Source: a virus. From it: a stretch of DNA of 26,954 bases. Below, piece after piece: positions 8,629 through 23,854 of the stretch. A model generated the notes under the pieces. It was not told where the DNA came from and did not search any database. It saw nothing but the letters and a program-made list of their open reading frames with translations. A program made the position numbers and the translations under genes. Numbering within the stretch: position 1 is the first letter of the stretch; each line of letters opens with the position of its first letter. The DNA is taken from the IMG/VR virus record IMGVR_UViG_3300014962_000044, positions 1 through 26,954 of that record; one strand, written 5' to 3'.

Positions 8629-8684
8629 ATAATCTCCTGCGCACGCGCACGTTTAGGCCACTTAATTGTGTCCTAATATAGTAT

Positions 8685-8713
8685 ATAATAGGCTATTTTT
8701 GTCCTTTAGTCAA
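8685..8713 (-). promoter_or_regulatory. Strong sigma70-type promoter
   Basis: On the minus strand TTGACT (8713-8708), a 17-base spacer and TATTAT (8690-8685) form a near-consensus housekeeping promoter. Transcription should start near 8678, giving a leader of about 50 bases before the decoration-like gene. It lies downstream of the HNH gene's terminator, so it restarts transcription for the tail genes. Confidence 0.8.
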
Positions 8714-8740
8714 TAGTTATGTATATTTATATAGTTAGAA

Positions 8741-8825
8741 AGTAAGTTTATAAGTTTATACATTTATATGCCCCGATAGGGTACTAAAATCCACATTAAT
8801 ATGGCTTTATACCCCGATTGGGGTA
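8741..8825. repeat. Paired imperfect palindromes and short A/T repeats upstream of the promoter
   Basis: TACCCC-GATT-GGGGTA (8810-8825) is a perfect 6-base-arm palindrome. A related copy, CCCCGATAGGGTAC, sits at 8771-8784, about 42 bases away; both are followed by AAAAT within a few bases. Beside them TAAGTTTA is repeated (8743 onward). They lie between the HNH terminator and the promoter, where an operator or activator site would be. No binding protein is identified. Confidence 0.45.
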
Positions 8826-8831
8826 CAAAAT

Positions 8832-8866
8832 AAAAAACCCAGGCTGAGTTTCCGCAGATGCCTGGG
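8832..8866 (-). terminator. Rho-independent terminator after the HNH gene
   Basis: On the minus strand GCCTGGG would be the downstream arm of a perfect 7-base stem (8838-8844 with 8860-8866) around a 15-base loop, followed by six T. It is a sister of the terminator at 9468-9502, with the same arm length, loop length and flanks. Confidence 0.8.
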
Positions 8867-8910
8867 CCAAACAGTGATTGCGCACTGGTCTATTATAGTA
8901 TAGTTTGAGC

Positions 8911-9420
8911 TTATTTTTTTAGGTAGGATATTGCTTTTTGTAAAAGCTCGACACTATGTTCAAATTTTCCTATGCTAGTATTGCACCTATCGCATAACAA
9001 TCCTCGAACGTCTTTGGTATCGTGACAATGGTCAACAGCTAGCTTGATAGTTTTGTTTCCAACTACATTTTGACTCTCATGTTTACCGCAAATTGCACAG
9101 GAGTGGTTTTGTTCTTCTAACATTTTAATGTATTGTTCTTCAGAGATTCCATATCTGGCTTTTAGTTTTGCTCGCCGTTGAATTGCTCTTGCCTTCTCTG
9201 GATTTTGCCTCTTCCACTCAATGTTTGCATATTTTCCTACCTCGGACGTATTCCATTTTTGCTTTATTGACTTAACTTTTTCTGGATTAGCTTGATTCCA
9301 TCTTTTTGACATCTCTGTTTTGCACTTATTACAATAAGAATACAGTCCATCTTTATTTCTTTTCTCTTTTCCAAATTCAGACTCGTTTTTAAGTTCATTA
9401 CATTTTCTACATTGTTTCAT
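8911..9420 (-). CDS. Endonuclease VII-like HNH homing nuclease, apparently intact
   Basis: A 169-residue protein from ATG 9420, which has the ribosome site GGAGG; a TTG start 15 codons upstream is less likely. It opens with a CxxC...CxxC zinc knuckle (Cys4, 7, 30, 33). A basic linker follows, then the core: CAICG at 108-112, VDHCHDT at 129-135 and GLLCDRCN at 140-147. This is the recombination endonuclease VII family (T4 gp49-type His-Me finger), with catalytic His131 and Asn147 and zinc cysteines present. Free-standing copies in phages are often homing or spreading nucleases. It sits between capsid and decoration genes with matching terminators on both sides, which suggests insertion into an existing intergenic site. 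Confidence 0.9.
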   Translation of the reverse strand: MKQCRKCNELKNESEFGKEKRNKDGLYSYCNKCKTEMSKRWNQANPEKVKSIKQKWNTSEVGKYANIEWKRQNPEKARAIQRRAKLKARYGISEEQYIKMLEEQNHSCAICGKHESQNVVGNKTIKLAVDHCHDTKDVRGLLCDRCNTSIGKFEHSVELLQKAISYLKK

Positions 9421-9467
9421 ATAGCCTCCATGGTTAATTCTATTATGGAAATCTATATTTTGCAAAT

Positions 9468-14566: not shown

Positions 14567-15031
14567 ATGAAAATACTGTTGTTTTTTTCTATAATATTTA
14601 TTGTTGGATGCGCTCCTGGATTTGAGCCTGGTGTTTTTGCAATAGATAAAAGGTTTTCTACTCAAGTTTCTAGATTTGAACAAATGTATGATATTGATGT
14701 TACCGTTTCTGTTCAAATGGCCAAACTTGCTCCCCCACAACTTGGTGTTTGTTATTATGCAGGAAGAAATAATAGTACTGTGAATTTGGTTCAGATTGAT
14801 GAAGAGTATTGGGATAGGGCTACGGATATAGAAAAAGAATTTTTAATTTACCATGAACTGGGCCATTGTGTTTTTGGCTTAAAGCATAATGATGCTTATG
14901 GAAAAGTAGGAAACTACAATTCTGCTCCATTAAGTATAATGAACACTTATAATTTTGGAGCTTATCCAGTTTATGTGCAAAATACTAATTATTATTATAA
15001 TCAACTTTTTCAACAATATAAAGTGAGGTAA
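14567..15031 (+). CDS. Lipoprotein zinc metalloprotease (zincin) candidate
   Basis: A 154-residue protein. Residues 1-14 are a lipoprotein signal ending IVGC, so Cys15 would be lipidated and the protein anchored on the outer side of the inner membrane or in the outer membrane. The middle holds YHELGHCVFGLKH: HExxH at 96-100, Gly104 and His107. Downstream PLSIMN (Met125) has the look of a metzincin Met-turn. The zinc motif has one residue more between HExxH and Gly than the metzincin HExxHxxGxxH rule. In a phage such a protein could cut envelope proteins during lysis, exclude rival phages, or open the peptidoglycan layer by peptide cleavage. Lipobox and zinc motif are seen directly; the function is inferred. 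Confidence 0.8.
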   Translation: MKILLFFSIIFIVGCAPGFEPGVFAIDKRFSTQVSRFEQMYDIDVTVSVQMAKLAPPQLGVCYYAGRNNSTVNLVQIDEEYWDRATDIEKEFLIYHELGHCVFGLKHNDAYGKVGNYNSAPLSIMNTYNFGAYPVYVQNTNYYYNQLFQQYKVR

Positions 15032-16439: not shown

Positions 16440-16769
16440 ATGGCCATTGTAGATAGAAGCTCTAGACCAAGAACAGAAATAGAAAACGTTTTATGGGCAA
16501 TCAAAAAAGCTGATGTAGTTTATGATATTGAGTTGGCAAGGGTAATAGCTTCTGTTCATGGCGTAAGCCCAGAGCGTATTGAAATTTTGCTTGGTCCACA
16601 AATTATTATAATTGACCCGAGATTTTTAAAAGAAAGAAATATTTTTGCACGAAAACCTGGAATCATTAAAAAAGTTTTGATGTATTTTAATAAAAGAGTT
16701 TTTTATAGCATTAGTTTAAAAAAACTTATTAGACTAACTGGTAATGATTTAATTTTAAAACAAAAATAG
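16440..16769 (+). CDS. Hypothetical basic protein
   Basis: A 109-residue protein. The N-terminal half (ENVLWAIKKADVVYDIELAR, SVHGVSPERIEILLGP) looks like a short helix-turn-helix-sized bundle, followed by a hydrophobic strand (QIIIIDPRFL) and a basic C-terminus. No family is recognised. AGGAGA lies five bases before the ATG, overlapping the stop of the transglycosylase gene. It is the gene directly upstream of the structured RNA candidate. Confidence 0.6.
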   Translation: MAIVDRSSRPRTEIENVLWAIKKADVVYDIELARVIASVHGVSPERIEILLGPQIIIIDPRFLKERNIFARKPGIIKKVLMYFNKRVFYSISLKKLIRLTGNDLILKQK

Positions 16770-16772
16770 TTT

Positions 16773-16981
16773 TGAGACGTAGGCGTGAAGTCGCTGTGGT
16801 GAGAGTGTAGGGAGTGTTAAACTCTAGATTAAAAGCCTCCAAATAGGCACTTGCTATCCACTAGGACACGCAGAGAGAAGATAATACTCGGAGCCGAATA
16901 TGAGGGTAATCTGCAGAGAACTTTGTTGATACGCATGAACCTCAGTAAGCTCGTAGCCATGGTCGCGTATGGCACGTCTCA
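16773..16981 (+). ncRNA. Candidate structured non-coding RNA, about 209 bases
   Basis: This interval has no plausible reading frame and, by hand count, is about 48 percent G+C in an AT-rich neighbourhood. Its ends pair perfectly: TGAGACGT (16773-16780) with ACGTCTCA (16974-16981). Inside are further helices: GCAGA with TCTGC (16870-16874 / 16910-16914) enclosing a hairpin at 16884-16901; GTGG with CCAC (16796-16799 / 16858-16861) enclosing GAGT/ACTC and GCCT/AGGC hairpins; and GCCAT with ATGGC (16956-16960 / 16969-16973), which abuts the closing stem like a T-arm. ACGC (16931-16934) can pair with GCGT in that hairpin's loop, a possible pseudoknot. It does not match group I intron, RNase P, tmRNA or tRNA signatures that I know. 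It may be processed from the operon transcript. Confidence 0.6.
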
Positions 16982-16998
16982 CTTTTTAGGAGCTTAAA

Positions 16999-17469
16999 TT
17001 GTCCAAACAATATGGATTCCAGCAGCAACTATCAAAGGGCTTACAGGCTCAAAAAGAATTTGCCGATTTTTATGAAATAGAACTATTAGACGGTACTGGT
17101 GCAGATATGAAATTGGCAAATGGCGCACTGGTGGAACTAAAAACGGACTTTAGAAACTCCAAGCGTACAGGAAATCTGTTTATTGAACGTTACAGTTCAA
17201 GTTTAAAAAAGTCTGATGGTGGTCCGTGGAAAGCTAAAACTGACGGCTGTATGTATTTTGTATATAAGTTTGATGATATTGTTTTGTGCTATTTAGTAGA
17301 TGAATTATTGGAATTTCTAAATAAAAACATACAAAATTACACATCTAAACGCATAAATAATGGCAGTTATGATACTTTGGGATATTTAGTTCCAATTCAT
17401 CATGTATCTCATATAGCTTTAGATTTTAGACAAATTGTATTAGACGCTGAAAATGAAGTAAATACTTAA
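16999..17469 (+). CDS. PD-(D/E)XK-type nuclease
   Basis: A 156-residue protein from a TTG start supported by AGGAG six bases upstream. A helix with Glu20 leads to GTGADMKLANGALVELKTD: Asp36 and Glu46-x-Lys48 form the D...ExK metal site of restriction-like nucleases, followed by the strand GNLFIERYSS. Size and layout fit phage junction resolvases or small DNA-processing nucleases (T7 endonuclease I-like role). It could also be a host-DNA degrading enzyme. The fold call is good; the substrate is unknown. It is the first gene after the structured RNA. Confidence 0.75.
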   Translation: MSKQYGFQQQLSKGLQAQKEFADFYEIELLDGTGADMKLANGALVELKTDFRNSKRTGNLFIERYSSSLKKSDGGPWKAKTDGCMYFVYKFDDIVLCYLVDELLEFLNKNIQNYTSKRINNGSYDTLGYLVPIHHVSHIALDFRQIVLDAENEVNT

Positions 17470-18182: not shown

Positions 18183-18610
18183 TGGGACTTGTTATCAGAG
18201 AACTTACAAAAGAAGACTATCCAATTATTTTTAATAGTTGGTTAAAAAGTTATAGCAAAGAATATGTTAAGTATAAAAATGTTCCTAACCAAATTTACTA
18301 TCAAGGACAGCATCTACTAATCGAAAATTTGTTGTCTAATAGCACTACTTTAGTTGCAGTTGATAGTGAAGACCAAAACATAGTTCTTGGATATTGTGTT
18401 GGGACCAAGTCAGAAGACACTTTTGTGGTGCATTATATCTATGTTAAAAAAGACTTTAGAGGTATGAAAATTGCTTCTAATATATTAAAATATGCTGGCG
18501 TAACTCCAGAGTCTAATATTGTTTTTACTCACTATACTCCGTCGGGAGCAGCGCTCGCTTCAAAATTTAACGCTATATATCACCCTTATATATTAATGGT
18601 AGGTGCATAA
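18182..18610 (+). CDS. GNAT-family acetyltransferase-like 2
   Basis: A 142-residue protein with an intact-looking N-terminal half (LVIRELTKEDYPIIFNSWL). Motif A reads VVHYIYVKKDFRGMKIASNI, with R-G-M-K-I instead of the usual Q/R-G-x-G-x-A/G, so the pyrophosphate loop is altered. The C-terminal part after the motif is short and ends HPYILMVGA. It shares one base with the first GNAT gene (TAATG). The two are only distantly alike, so a recent tandem duplication is not evident. Activity cannot be judged by sight. Confidence 0.75.
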   Translation: MGLVIRELTKEDYPIIFNSWLKSYSKEYVKYKNVPNQIYYQGQHLLIENLLSNSTTLVAVDSEDQNIVLGYCVGTKSEDTFVVHYIYVKKDFRGMKIASNILKYAGVTPESNIVFTHYTPSGAALASKFNAIYHPYILMVGA

Positions 18611-19182
18611 TGGTTAATGAGCAAGAGCAGGGCGCACTTTCATTTGCTATTGAGCTTGCAATTGGTCAGGGCATAAATGTTCTAGATAGGTCTATACAAA
18701 TCTTTGAAGATATTGATAGTAATACGCTAAAAAAAGTAGATTATGGAGTGTCTATATTAGAAAAACTTGGCTCAGAACCAATTACAGTCCGTATTGCTAC
18801 GGCTGGTGGAGATGTTTACGCTGGATTCGGTATTGCAGGGAGACTTCGTGCTAGCAGTTGCGAAATAATCACTGAAGCATATGGAAATTGCATGAGTAGT
18901 GGCGTTATGGTGTTCTCTGCTGGTGATGTTAGGCGAGCAAAAGAGCCTGTTTTATTTATGTTACATCAGTTGTCTGCTGAAATCCCAGAAGACAAGTTAT
19001 TAGGGCTTAAGGCAGCCGTAATTCAACTAAAAAGAGACCAAGAAGTTTATATAAAGTACTTAGCACAACGCACAGGTACGTCAACAAAAGTATGGAAAAG
19101 TTTTATTAACAGGTCAGATGATACGTATTTAACTGCTGCAGAGGCGTTACATCTAAATTTGGCCACAGAGGAGGTTTTATAA
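18610..19182 (+). CDS. ClpP-like serine protease, prohead protease candidate
   Basis: A 190-residue protein. It has the ClpP/S14 pattern: ITVRIATAGGDVYAGFGIAG, then GNCMSSGVMVFSAG with nucleophile Ser96, FMLHQ with His119, and DDTYLTAAEAL with Asp171, aligned without gaps around each residue to the ClpP triad. There is no signal peptide, so it acts in the cytoplasm. In phages this fold often serves as prohead protease, trimming scaffold and capsid. It stands before the large terminase, far from the capsid and on the other strand, which is unusual. It overlaps the flanking starts by single bases. Confidence 0.88.
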   Translation: MVNEQEQGALSFAIELAIGQGINVLDRSIQIFEDIDSNTLKKVDYGVSILEKLGSEPITVRIATAGGDVYAGFGIAGRLRASSCEIITEAYGNCMSSGVMVFSAGDVRRAKEPVLFMLHQLSAEIPEDKLLGLKAAVIQLKRDQEVYIKYLAQRTGTSTKVWKSFINRSDDTYLTAAEALHLNLATEEVL

Positions 19183-19439
19183 TGGAACAACAAACGTCAG
19201 AAGTCGCTACTGAGGCTCAAAATACCGACCAGGTACTATCAAAATGGGTATCTGACTTGCGTAAATCGTTAAAAGAAAAGTCAAAAAATGAATTAGTACG
19301 TCTAGTTATTCATATGACTATTGAGCTATATAAGGAAAAGGAAAAAAATGAAAAAAATTCTAATAACTCTACTGATTCTTCTGAGCTTATCTCTAGCACT
19401 GAAGGCAGAAGAGCGCCAGATAACAGTAACCAAGACTAA
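19182..19439 (+). CDS. Small charged protein overlapping the exported protease gene
   Basis: An 85-residue protein. The first 55 residues are helical (VLSKWVSDLRKSLKEKSKNE, then LVRLVIHMTIELYKEKEK); the rest is a Ser/Asn/Asp-rich tail with low complexity. The last 92 bases overlap the next gene in another frame, and that low-complexity tail lies exactly over the neighbour's signal-peptide codons. So its C-terminus is probably shaped by the overlap. It starts at the stop of the ClpP-like gene and has GAGGAGG-like bases before the ATG. Function unknown. Confidence 0.65.
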   Translation: MEQQTSEVATEAQNTDQVLSKWVSDLRKSLKEKSKNELVRLVIHMTIELYKEKEKNEKNSNNSTDSSELISSTEGRRAPDNSNQD

Positions 19440-19929
19440 TTCTATCTGTGTTTGCGATGATTTTACGCCTATGCTTATCATGAGTATAGTAGTGCAATCT
19501 GCGTTATTTGCAAAAAAGGTAGATTATATTATCATACAAAGTCGTGGTGGTTACACAGTTACAATTTGGCCAATTCAGCTTTTATTAGAAAAGTATCCTG
19601 ATGCAACTGTTGTTATTACAGATGCTATGTCTGCAGCAGCATTTTTATCCGTGCGTTTGCCAAATAAACGTGTTATAGATAAGCAAGGAATGATGTTATT
19701 TCATAAGGTATACACAACCGTTAAAATGTCTCCAAGAGAGGATGCTAGGTTAAAGGTGGTTAATTATGCTCTTATGTGGGATGCAGCTAGACTTATGAAC
19801 ATGACTTATATGGAGTATAGGGACAAGGTAATAAATGGCGATTGGATTATACTACCAGATGAACTACTACTTCGTGGAATTGTTTCTGAGATTGTTAATA
19901 TTAAGATAGATAATAGTTATTATAAATAA
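19348..19929 (+). CDS. Exported ClpP-fold serine protease
   Basis: A 193-residue protein from ATG 19348 (AAGGAAAAGG upstream); a TTG start nine codons earlier is unlikely. Residues 1-20 (MKKILITLLILLSLSLALKA) form a classical signal peptide with a probable cut after Ala20. The mature part follows the ClpP pattern: VDYIIIQSRGGYTVTIWPIQ, ITDAMSAAAFLSV with Ser95, MMLFHK with His119, and INGDWIILPDELL with Asp165. So a second, distinct ClpP-fold enzyme would work in the periplasm or outside the cell, resembling SppA in location but not in architecture. Both proteases are next to each other, yet they share little beyond the fold. Confidence 0.85.
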   Translation: MKKILITLLILLSLSLALKAEERQITVTKTNSICVCDDFTPMLIMSIVVQSALFAKKVDYIIIQSRGGYTVTIWPIQLLLEKYPDATVVITDAMSAAAFLSVRLPNKRVIDKQGMMLFHKVYTTVKMSPREDARLKVVNYALMWDAARLMNMTYMEYRDKVINGDWIILPDELLLRGIVSEIVNIKIDNSYYK

Positions 19930-21682: not shown

Positions 21683-22129
21683 CTACTTGTTCATGTCCAT
21701 TAATAGTTCTCTTAAGGCCGCTGCTAAAGATACTTTTTGTCTGCTGGCAGCTATAAGTTTACTGCAAACACTGCATACTAGGCCATAAACTGTTTTTGTT
21801 TTTTTGTTTTGCAGTACGTGGAGCTTTGAAGTTTTTGTATTACAGCATTTGCATTTGTAGTCTTGTGCAACAGACATTTGGTTAAATTCGTCCAAAGACA
21901 AATTATACATTTTGGTTAAGTTGTATTGTTTGGTTGTTAGTTTTTTAGCCTCTTTTATTGGCTTAACCATTAAAGACCTTTTGTGCTCTTTCCATTTTTT
22001 TGTTTTTTCGTATGAACACTCTTTACAAAGTGGTTGCAATCCATCTTTACTGTTTTTTCTGTTGGCAAAACTATATACTGATTTTTCTTTATTACAGCAG
22101 TTGCATTTTTTGAATTGAGTGTGGTCCAT
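21683..22129 (-). CDS. Degenerate endonuclease VII-like protein, catalytic core lost
   Basis: A 148-residue protein with AGGAGA before ATG 22129. It has the same plan as the HNH gene at 8911-9420: zinc knuckle with Cys9, 12, 35 and 38 (NRKNSKDGLQPLCKEC), basic linker, then CKCC at 93-96 and GLVCSVC at 116-122. A gapless alignment puts Leu-Gln-Asn-Lys (106-109) where the intact copy has Asp-His-Cys-His, and Ser123 where it has Asn147. The zinc cysteines remain but the catalytic His and Asn are gone. It is either an inactive remnant or a DNA-binding protein derived from a nuclease. It converges on the terminase gene, one base apart. The open frame itself is unbroken. Confidence 0.8.
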   Translation of the reverse strand: MDHTQFKKCNCCNKEKSVYSFANRKNSKDGLQPLCKECSYEKTKKWKEHKRSLMVKPIKEAKKLTTKQYNLTKMYNLSLDEFNQMSVAQDYKCKCCNTKTSKLHVLQNKKTKTVYGLVCSVCSKLIAASRQKVSLAAALRELLMDMNK

Positions 22130-22690
22130 AAATTTCTCCTATAACTCGACTTTAAACTGCTGGGGCGGGCTTGTCAAATTTTAATTTTTAGGCGTCTCAA
22201 AATGACTAGAGTAAAAACTCTAAATGGGTAAAAATTGGAACTTGTAAGCATGATTTACAAGCTGCCTGAAAATACCAGAAAGTTCAATTTTTCAAAAGGA
22301 TATTCAGTTTTACTCGTGTCGTCCAAAAGGCTCAGGTCAAATATATTCGATTTGAGTGTCAGCAGTTTAGATGGCTGGTGCGGCGCGATTTTTTTGCTAT
22401 TTTTAGTTTGGCATAAAGTTTTCTAATGGCTGTTATAATAATGACTAATTTTGTACTCGTTCTGTTGGCAAAAAGAAATTTATAGGCCATATAATTTTTA
22501 CTTATACTAATGAACTTTGCCAGCTTAAAGTCAGAAGGCCAAACTTTAAAGTTTTTGGAGATTTTAAAGCCTGACTTTGCTTTTGAAAAATTTGACTTTG
22601 AAACGGACATGAACAATTTCCAATAAATGCAACTGGCTTTAGCGAACTTTGGGTGTGGCAACGGGAGAAAGTGTGAGCGATTACCGTAGC

Positions 22691-22744
22691 TTATATATTT
22701 TTAATTACTTTACTAATTTAATAAAATATAAAAAACATATATTC
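22691..22744. other. AT-rich patch, possible unwinding element
   Basis: Fifty-four bases with four C and no G, including TTATATATTTTTAATTAC. It would melt easily and lies some 650 bases from the iterated array. Confidence 0.45.
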
Positions 22745-23140
22745 TTTCCCAAAAAGGCCGTTTTTAGAAACAACTTACTTTACTTTAAGTCTCCTTTTTT
22801 GGTCCTTTTTTTCTATGGGTATGGGGTAAACTGTTTATGTAGGCCCAGGCTATGTCTATGTCTATAGTCTATACCATGGCCTTAGCCTAAATAACATAGA
22901 ACCTGTAAACGCAAATAAACCTACGCTACGCAAATCAATTTAAAGGCCTCTAATCGCCTCACCATTGAACGAATGGCCCGCGAGGCATACCCAAGTATGG
23001 GTCACAGGTTACAGGGCTTATAAACGCGATTACGAGTTATGCCTATATTTGAGCTGACAGGCTATAATAGGCTATTAGACAAACGATTAGACCTTAGTCC
23101 ATACCTAAGCCTATCCCTGGACTATCGTGGCTTAAAAGGA

Positions 23141-23163
23141 CCGTTTGACGCGAATAGGGCCTT
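23141..23163 (+). repeat. Copy 1 of a shared element (CCGTTTGACGCGAA + CGAATAGGGCCTT)
   Basis: CCGTTTGACGCGAATA recurs as CCGTCTGACGCGAACA at 24491-24506, and CGAATAGGGCCTT (23151-23163) recurs inverted as AAGGCCCTATTCG at 24535-24547. Both partners lie within 60 bases of each other in the second location. A phage-specific promoter or protein-binding site is possible. Confidence 0.5.
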
Positions 23164-23249
23164 ACCAAGTTGTAAGTGTTAATAGTCTATACACCTGTAA
23201 AAAAAGTTATAACTATTTGAAACTAGTGCCATTTTTAGGCCTACCCTGT

Positions 23250-23339
23250 ATAAAAACACCCTTATTTAAAAACACCCCCACCATAAAAAGACACACATAT
23301 AAACGGCCCATCCCCACATTAACCCCCTATATTAAAAAA
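23250..23339. other. G-poor A/C-rich tract
   Basis: Only three G in 90 bases on the plus strand, with runs such as AAAAACACCC and CACCCCCACC. The strong strand bias is unlike coding DNA here and could expose a single-stranded or primase-binding region beside the iterated array. Confidence 0.45.
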
Positions 23340-23366
23340 GTGCCCTGCTTTCACACACTTATAACT

Positions 23367-23383
23367 TTGGCACAGTCTTTGCA
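23367..23383 (+). promoter_or_regulatory. Sigma54-type -24/-12 match, plus strand
   Basis: TTGGCACAGTCTTTGCA has GG-N10-GC at the right spacing and nearly the full TGGCAC-N5-TTGCA pattern. It sits at the left edge of the array. No plus-strand gene follows, so a promoter role is doubtful. Confidence 0.4.
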
Positions 23384-23387
23384 CCCC

Positions 23388-23622
23388 TGCAAGTTTTATG
23401 CTACGGTTTACTGTTGCAATATTTATGCCAACTAAGTAGCCTTGCAAGAATCATGCCATTGAAACTATTATGCAATTTCTATGCCAGCCCACAAGACTAT
23501 GCAATATCTATGCCAATTAAACAGCCTTGCAAGAATCATGCCAATCCACATAAGCATGCAATAATCGCGCCATACTGTGTATCACATTGAAACTGTTGAG
23601 GTATCTGCAATTTTTAGGCCAG
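23388..23622 (-). repeat. Iterated 16-17 base element at 28-29 base spacing (iteron-like / sigma54-like array)
   Basis: On the plus strand, units such as TGCAATATTTATGCCA, TGCAAGAATCATGCCA and TGCAATTTCTATGCCA recur with their conserved GC at 23416, 23444, 23472, 23501, 23529, 23558 and 23607, plus a weaker copy at 23389. Spacing is 27, 28, 28, 29, 28, 29 and then 49. Copies 23442-23458 and 23527-23543 are identical. The consensus is TGCAA-N6-ATGCCA. Read on the minus strand every strong copy is TGGC-N8-TTGCA, which fits the sigma54 rule GG-N10-GC. Same orientation and regular pitch also fit replication iterons. Confidence 0.75.
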
Positions 23623-23723
23623 CAGCTGCCATTTTCTGCCATTTTTATGTCTCAAATTGGTACATTTGCCAACAGATGTATAGCAAACATGACTCAAAAT
23701 GAGATTTTTAGGTAGATTTTAGT

Positions 23724-23740
23724 TTGGCACGGAAGTTGCG
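23724..23740 (+). promoter_or_regulatory. Near-perfect sigma54-type -24/-12 match, plus strand
   Basis: TTGGCACGGAAGTTGCG matches the published consensus YTGGCACGrNNNTTGCW in all but the last base. Transcription would begin near 23750, exactly where the 11-base tandem repeat starts, and would run antisense to the minus-strand genes. Confidence 0.45.
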
Positions 23741-23753
23741 TCAATACGAGACA

Positions 23754-23838
23754 CTTACAATGTTCTTACAATGTTCTTACAATGTTCTTACAATGTTCTT
23801 ACAATGTTCTTACAATGTTCTTACAATGTTCTTACAAT
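23754..23838. repeat. 11-base perfect tandem repeat, 7.7 copies
   Basis: CTTACAATGTT is repeated seven times without a mismatch (23754-23830), followed by CTTACAAT. Eleven bases is close to one helical turn, so any bend or protein contact is repeated on the same face. It begins after the sigma54-like site and ends 17 bases before the stop of the next minus-strand gene. Confidence 0.9.
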
Positions 23839-23854
23839 ATATCTAATTATCCTA

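Follow-up and report, generated by a model that had tools for sequence, protein, structure and literature searches.

To our knowledge, few families of structured RNA encoded by phages have been described, and functions are known for a minority of them. In the pRNA of phi29, a helix joins the 5' and 3' ends of the molecule. GOLLD and ROOL RNAs use kissing loops to make oligomers (PMC12286853). Here we analysed a 26,954-base IMG/VR virus record (the window), in which an earlier note had proposed a phage non-coding RNA at positions 16773-16981. The record comes from a tailed phage whose portal is SU10/P22-like and whose terminase belongs to phrog_2. Our comparison with a distant homologue suggests, with a probability of roughly three in four, that this element is a member of a new family of structured non-coding RNAs encoded by phages and probably acting in trans. 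That it is a non-coding, structured and conserved RNA gene appears well supported by the same comparison, and the earlier proposal gains from it the homologue itself, compensatory changes in the stems, a predicted promoter in the homologue and shared boundaries.

The 209 bases of the element lie in a 229-base gap (16770-16998) of the phage genome flanked by ORFs 16440-16769 and 16999-17469, and the element runs in the same direction as its operon. As had been claimed, the gap holds no plausible gene on the + strand, and the element has about 48% G+C in AT-rich DNA (47.8% for 16773-16981 compared to 37.0% contig-wide). Only 1.3% of the 209-base intervals of the contig contain as much G+C, nearly all the others being coding DNA, and the gap ranks first in G+C among the gaps of the contig. 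The copy belongs to the head/packaging region, with lysis genes on one side and terminase genes on the other. Other features of this contig include a ClpP-like head maturation protease (18610-19182, + strand), an ORF (19321-19929, + strand) that overlaps a small ORF (19182-19439) and whose product, judged by eye, resembles another ClpP-fold protein and has a signal peptide, and 1.7 kb (22130-23854) where no convincing gene was seen, although the contig is otherwise dense. Two ORFs on the - strand (8911-9465 and 21683-22129), one of them near the capsid gene and one adjoining the terminase gene, are HNH endonuclease-like by eye, with paired CxxC motifs, and are probably free-standing homing endonucleases.

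The edges of the gap carry an exact 8-bp inverted repeat, TGAGACGT (16773-16780, + strand) and ACGTCTCA (16974-16981, + strand), which forms the perfect closing stem, P1, that the earlier note had described. The T-arm-like hairpin reported with it, GCCAT-GGTCGCGT-ATGGC (16956-16973, + strand), is likewise present and directly touches the 3' strand of P1. A closing stem of at least 8 bp with an abutting hairpin of at least 5 bp occurred in 77 of 80,000 dinucleotide shuffles (about 1 in 1000), and 446 native windows contained none, in a test framed after the feature had been seen. High G+C, the absence of a gene and the closing stem with its abutting hairpin are signs of RNA that are suggestive only. 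The fold energy of 16773-16981 (-60.6 kcal/mol) is no better than that of shuffled sequences (z -1.09, with 25 of 200 shuffles equally good), an outcome that the earlier note had itself listed as speaking against its proposal; further runs that covered the whole element, segments of it and the remainder of the window agree that the element is not significant, and the homologue described below is unremarkable too. Because the fold energy is ordinary, inner helices are not derivable from a single sequence, and the five or more that had been claimed remain predictions. Imposing P1 and the abutting hairpin on the fold gave a multi-branch model, which runs in the order P1, AG linker, long arm A, small arm, arm C, GTA linker, hairpin and P1. 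Elsewhere, the strongest fold-energy outliers of the window (30 shuffles each) are 14851-15000 (z about -5.1/-3.8), inside ORF 14567-15031, and 8801-8950 (z about -4.1), mostly within the gap 8629-8910.

The deciding evidence for the element being real is a homologue. From the imposed-fold model we built a search pattern, AGTAANNNNGTANNNNNGGTCGC, in which loop and linker bases were fixed and helix columns left free. It matched 51 loci in IMG/VR, only one of which, L139 in contig 3300010412_000170, has all five hairpin pairs together with extended similarity. The window RNA and L139 were aligned by nhmmer in two collinear pieces (E 8e-4 and 0.011). In L139, ACACGCAGA (16866-16874 in the window, + strand) is followed by a 33-base block, TGAACCTCAGTAA and an unchanged loop GGTCGCGT, as it is in the window. 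The 33-base block, AGATAATACTCGGAGCCGAATATGAGGGTAATC (16879-16911, + strand), lies outside the search pattern and is identical at 29 of its 33 positions (p ~5e-14). The RNA is about 210 nt long in the window and about 295 nt in L139. The pattern had five matches in 84,980 species genomes, an exact pattern for 16 bases of the 3' hairpin had four in IMG/VR and an arm C pattern had two, all of them due to chance, and blastn and nhmmer searches of the RNA against annotated phages and related contigs gave no copy. When a covariance model was run on every fetched locus and on 787 genomes from two phyla, it recovered just the two members, the window copy and L139, on which the family rests. A weak covariance match, L083, was rejected, as it is antisense and inside a gene. 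Patterns with fixed loops and free helices can detect structured phage RNAs that fold energy, BLAST and Rfam miss.

The earlier note had also proposed looking for compensatory changes in a homologue, which we regard as a stronger test than fold energy, and such changes are present in the stems of L139. The hairpin stem GCCAT/ATGGC of the window is GCCGG/CCGGC in L139, an A-U and a U-A pair each being replaced by G-C; with two sequences the shuffle control for this stem cannot reach significance, and sliding the partners abolishes pairing. P1 is largely replaced, with four pairs changed on both sides yet paired (hand alignment), and its L139 flanks, TGGACTG/CGGCCCA, pair at 6 of 7 positions at the fixed register (null 0.0096). 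The 2-nt AG linker (16781-16782, + strand) is identical in L139. Arm A (16783-16871, + strand) has the same base helix in both phages, GCGTG (16783-16787) with CACGC (16867-16871); its middle and tip are not alike, with an extra hairpin in L139, and its inner helices are predictions. Arm C (16891-16952, + strand) consists of GAGC (16891-16894) with GCTC (16949-16952) and GAGG (16902-16905) with CCTC (16940-16943), and in L139 it is extended distally by about 75 nt. Neither the base of arm A nor the core of arm C differs between the phages, and both are therefore uninformative on compensation. A further conserved block, TGAACCTCAGTAAGCTCGTA (16936-16955, + strand), holds the internal loop AGTAA and the linker GTA. 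In L139, C-A takes the place of two arm C pairs, and three named pairs are lost in addition to the outermost P1 pair. The suggested pseudoknot between the hairpin loop and ACGC (16931-16934) is formally possible in the window, but is not conserved, ACGC being missing at the matching place of L139.

This block conservation, together with compensatory changes in a phage without detectable protein similarity, in the main refutes a functionless chance G+C-rich spacer or decayed gene, a reading with which the ordinary fold energy (z -1.09) and the lack of a homologue in related phages would agree and which we find hardly credible. We also rejected a coding reading, a short ATG/TTG-AACCTCAGTAA... 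frame found in both phages, because the two compensatory pairs of the hairpin are where its amino acids change, and because there is no ribosome site and stops interrupt all frames across the rest of the region.

The pair count is 52 of 56 on the RNA-sense strand and on the complementary strand alike, therefore the strand assignment rests on other evidence. Such symmetry is what a DNA-level element (an origin, recombination or packaging site) with hairpins acting as DNA would show. That explanation is very unlikely in our assessment, as the element has a promoter at its 5' edge in L139 and a T-run at its 3' edge in both phages, and the RNA is co-directional with the operon in both. The L139 promoter is a predicted sigma-70 site, TTGACA-N17-CATACT, which agrees with the consensus at 10 of 12 positions (null 0.0023 at the given place), has a TG before the -10 and ends 6 bases upstream of the first G of the RNA; just upstream of it lies, by eye, a terminator-like AGGCA...TGCCT-GC-T8. 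No convincing sigma-70 promoter was seen upstream of the window copy. At the 3' side, a run of 4-5 T starts within a few bases of P1 in both phages (16983-16987 in the window, + strand, right after P1; TTTT at nearly the same place in L139) and likely marks the transcript end. Compensatory changes, transcription signals and the absence of a coding frame, which are the general marks of a structured non-coding RNA, are all found in this pair of sequences. Upstream of its promoter, L139 has a second G+C-rich, non-coding-looking stretch (9307-9424, RNA-sense strand), GAGGCGTTGTACTAGGACGC...CGCACGCC, possibly another structured element adjoining a terminator.

The product of the gene just downstream in the window (16999-17469, + strand) shows by eye a PD-(D/E)XK-like motif, with the spacing D-x-E-x-K, and has a weak PHROG match, phrog_13596. 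The element could be a cis-acting leader of this gene, either a riboswitch or an RNA thermometer, since TAAGCTC (16946-16952) could form a duplex with the ribosome site GGAGCTTA, to the exclusion of P1. Over 10 nt, 16946-16955 and 16987-16996 are 90% complementary and overlap the Shine-Dalgarno, with the start codon at a short distance. However, the genes downstream are not alike in the two phages, the region downstream in L139 has neither a matching sequence nor a clear ribosome site, a T-run stands between RNA and gene in both phages, and none of the related contigs searched contains a homologue of the 16999-17469 protein. A conserved class of downstream gene combined with an expression platform, as in riboswitches, was not found across the two members, and we regard a leader function as unlikely. 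Instead, three observations lead us to infer that the RNA would act in trans: the two phages have different genes downstream, the pairing with the ribosome site is lost and L139 has its own promoter and end signals.

In L139 the copy has the portal gene on one side and a small, scaffold-like gene on the other. Pairwise BLAST of the window phage proteins against L139 found no convincing relative; the terminases of both phages match the same broad PHROG family, the window large subunit being phrog_2/Terminase_6N. No copy of the RNA was found in about 80-85 contigs related to the window phage (fetched via terminase and portal), in the relatives of L139 examined or in plasmids, and the 787 genomes held no further one. 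In MW202601, an annotated relative of L139, the post-portal interval is an open frame without the RNA. Some of these absences may be apparent only, because many records are fragments. The earlier note had thought of a packaging RNA, and the location of both copies in the head/packaging region, the closed-end helix and the palindromic loop would suit a packaging or assembly RNA like phi29 pRNA, with the P1 end helix docking on the packaging ATPase and the loops forming a ring. But no copy is seen in relatives of either phage whose terminase and portal are of the same kind, and such a role is less likely because these relatives seem to package without the RNA. Rfam gave no match to pRNA either, and the terminase is of the phrog_2 large-subunit kind, unlike the phi29 ATPase, so that we hold this role to be quite unlikely. 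The trans-acting RNA that we favour would be an accessory cassette, because it is common to distant phages and absent from near ones. In the records compared, its distribution is patchy and appears to outlast protein similarity, and the cassette has probably been exchanged between phages horizontally.

As for its mechanism, the comparison of the two sequences supports a self-contained RNA that is closed end to end by P1 and bears the long arm A, the conserved arm C and, abutting P1, a 3' hairpin whose 8-nt loop is invariant; in L139 the RNA would be transcribed from its own predicted sigma-70 promoter. The invariant loop and the AGTAA/GAGGGTAATC junction may be the likeliest contact surface, which would bind a partner, either protein or RNA, while the phage grows. 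The results would be compatible with a regulator, another suggestion of the earlier note, without pointing to one. The loop GGTCGCGT contains the palindrome CGCG, and therefore loop-loop self-pairing (a homodimer) is an option; we offer it as an idea, since 8-base loops hold some 4-base palindrome about one quarter of the time. A broader proposal, speculative and rather unlikely, is a new class of small mobile RNAs that would travel as stand-alone cassettes between unrelated phages, assemble through an invariant palindromic loop and act on the host or in virion assembly with no adjacent protein. Its small size, defined ends and distant relative, together with a conservation above that of the nearby proteins, make the RNA amenable to work in vitro.

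Covariance models of Rfam 15 (including pRNA, GOLLD, ROOL, OLE, RNase P, tmRNA and group I/II introns) assigned the element to no family, even at E<=10. A further Rfam search gave one match, due to chance and on the other strand, and ARAGORN detected no tRNA or tmRNA on the element. This is in line with the earlier view that it is not an RNase P, tmRNA, tRNA or group I RNA. No match to the RNA was named in the literature, as covered by open-licence papers without a structure search. Its likeness to tRNA and tmRNA is topological only (an end stem, a 2-nt linker, arms, a short linker and a 5-bp hairpin 0 nt from the end stem), whereas its loop GGTCGCGT is no canonical T-loop and CCA is lacking; the suggested mimicry of a host RNA finds support in this arrangement of arms and nothing further. 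Like translational riboswitches, the element lies just upstream of a gene and has a segment able to pair with the ribosome site, but this pairing is lost in the homologue, the downstream genes are not alike and a T-run lies between RNA and gene. It resembles phi29 pRNA in size, in its end helix and in its packaging-region location in both phages, and differs in having no Rfam match, a packaging enzyme of another kind and no copy found in relatives. Compared to GOLLD and ROOL, it is much smaller (~210-295 nt) and has no Rfam match, the window is without tRNA genes, and the CGCG palindrome of its invariant loop may be just a hint of similar oligomers. Like these ornate phage and prophage RNAs, it is phage-encoded, structured and not protein-coding (PMC12286853). 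Phage-encoded accessory structured RNA is a kind already known, of which this element would represent a new family as far as the tools tell.
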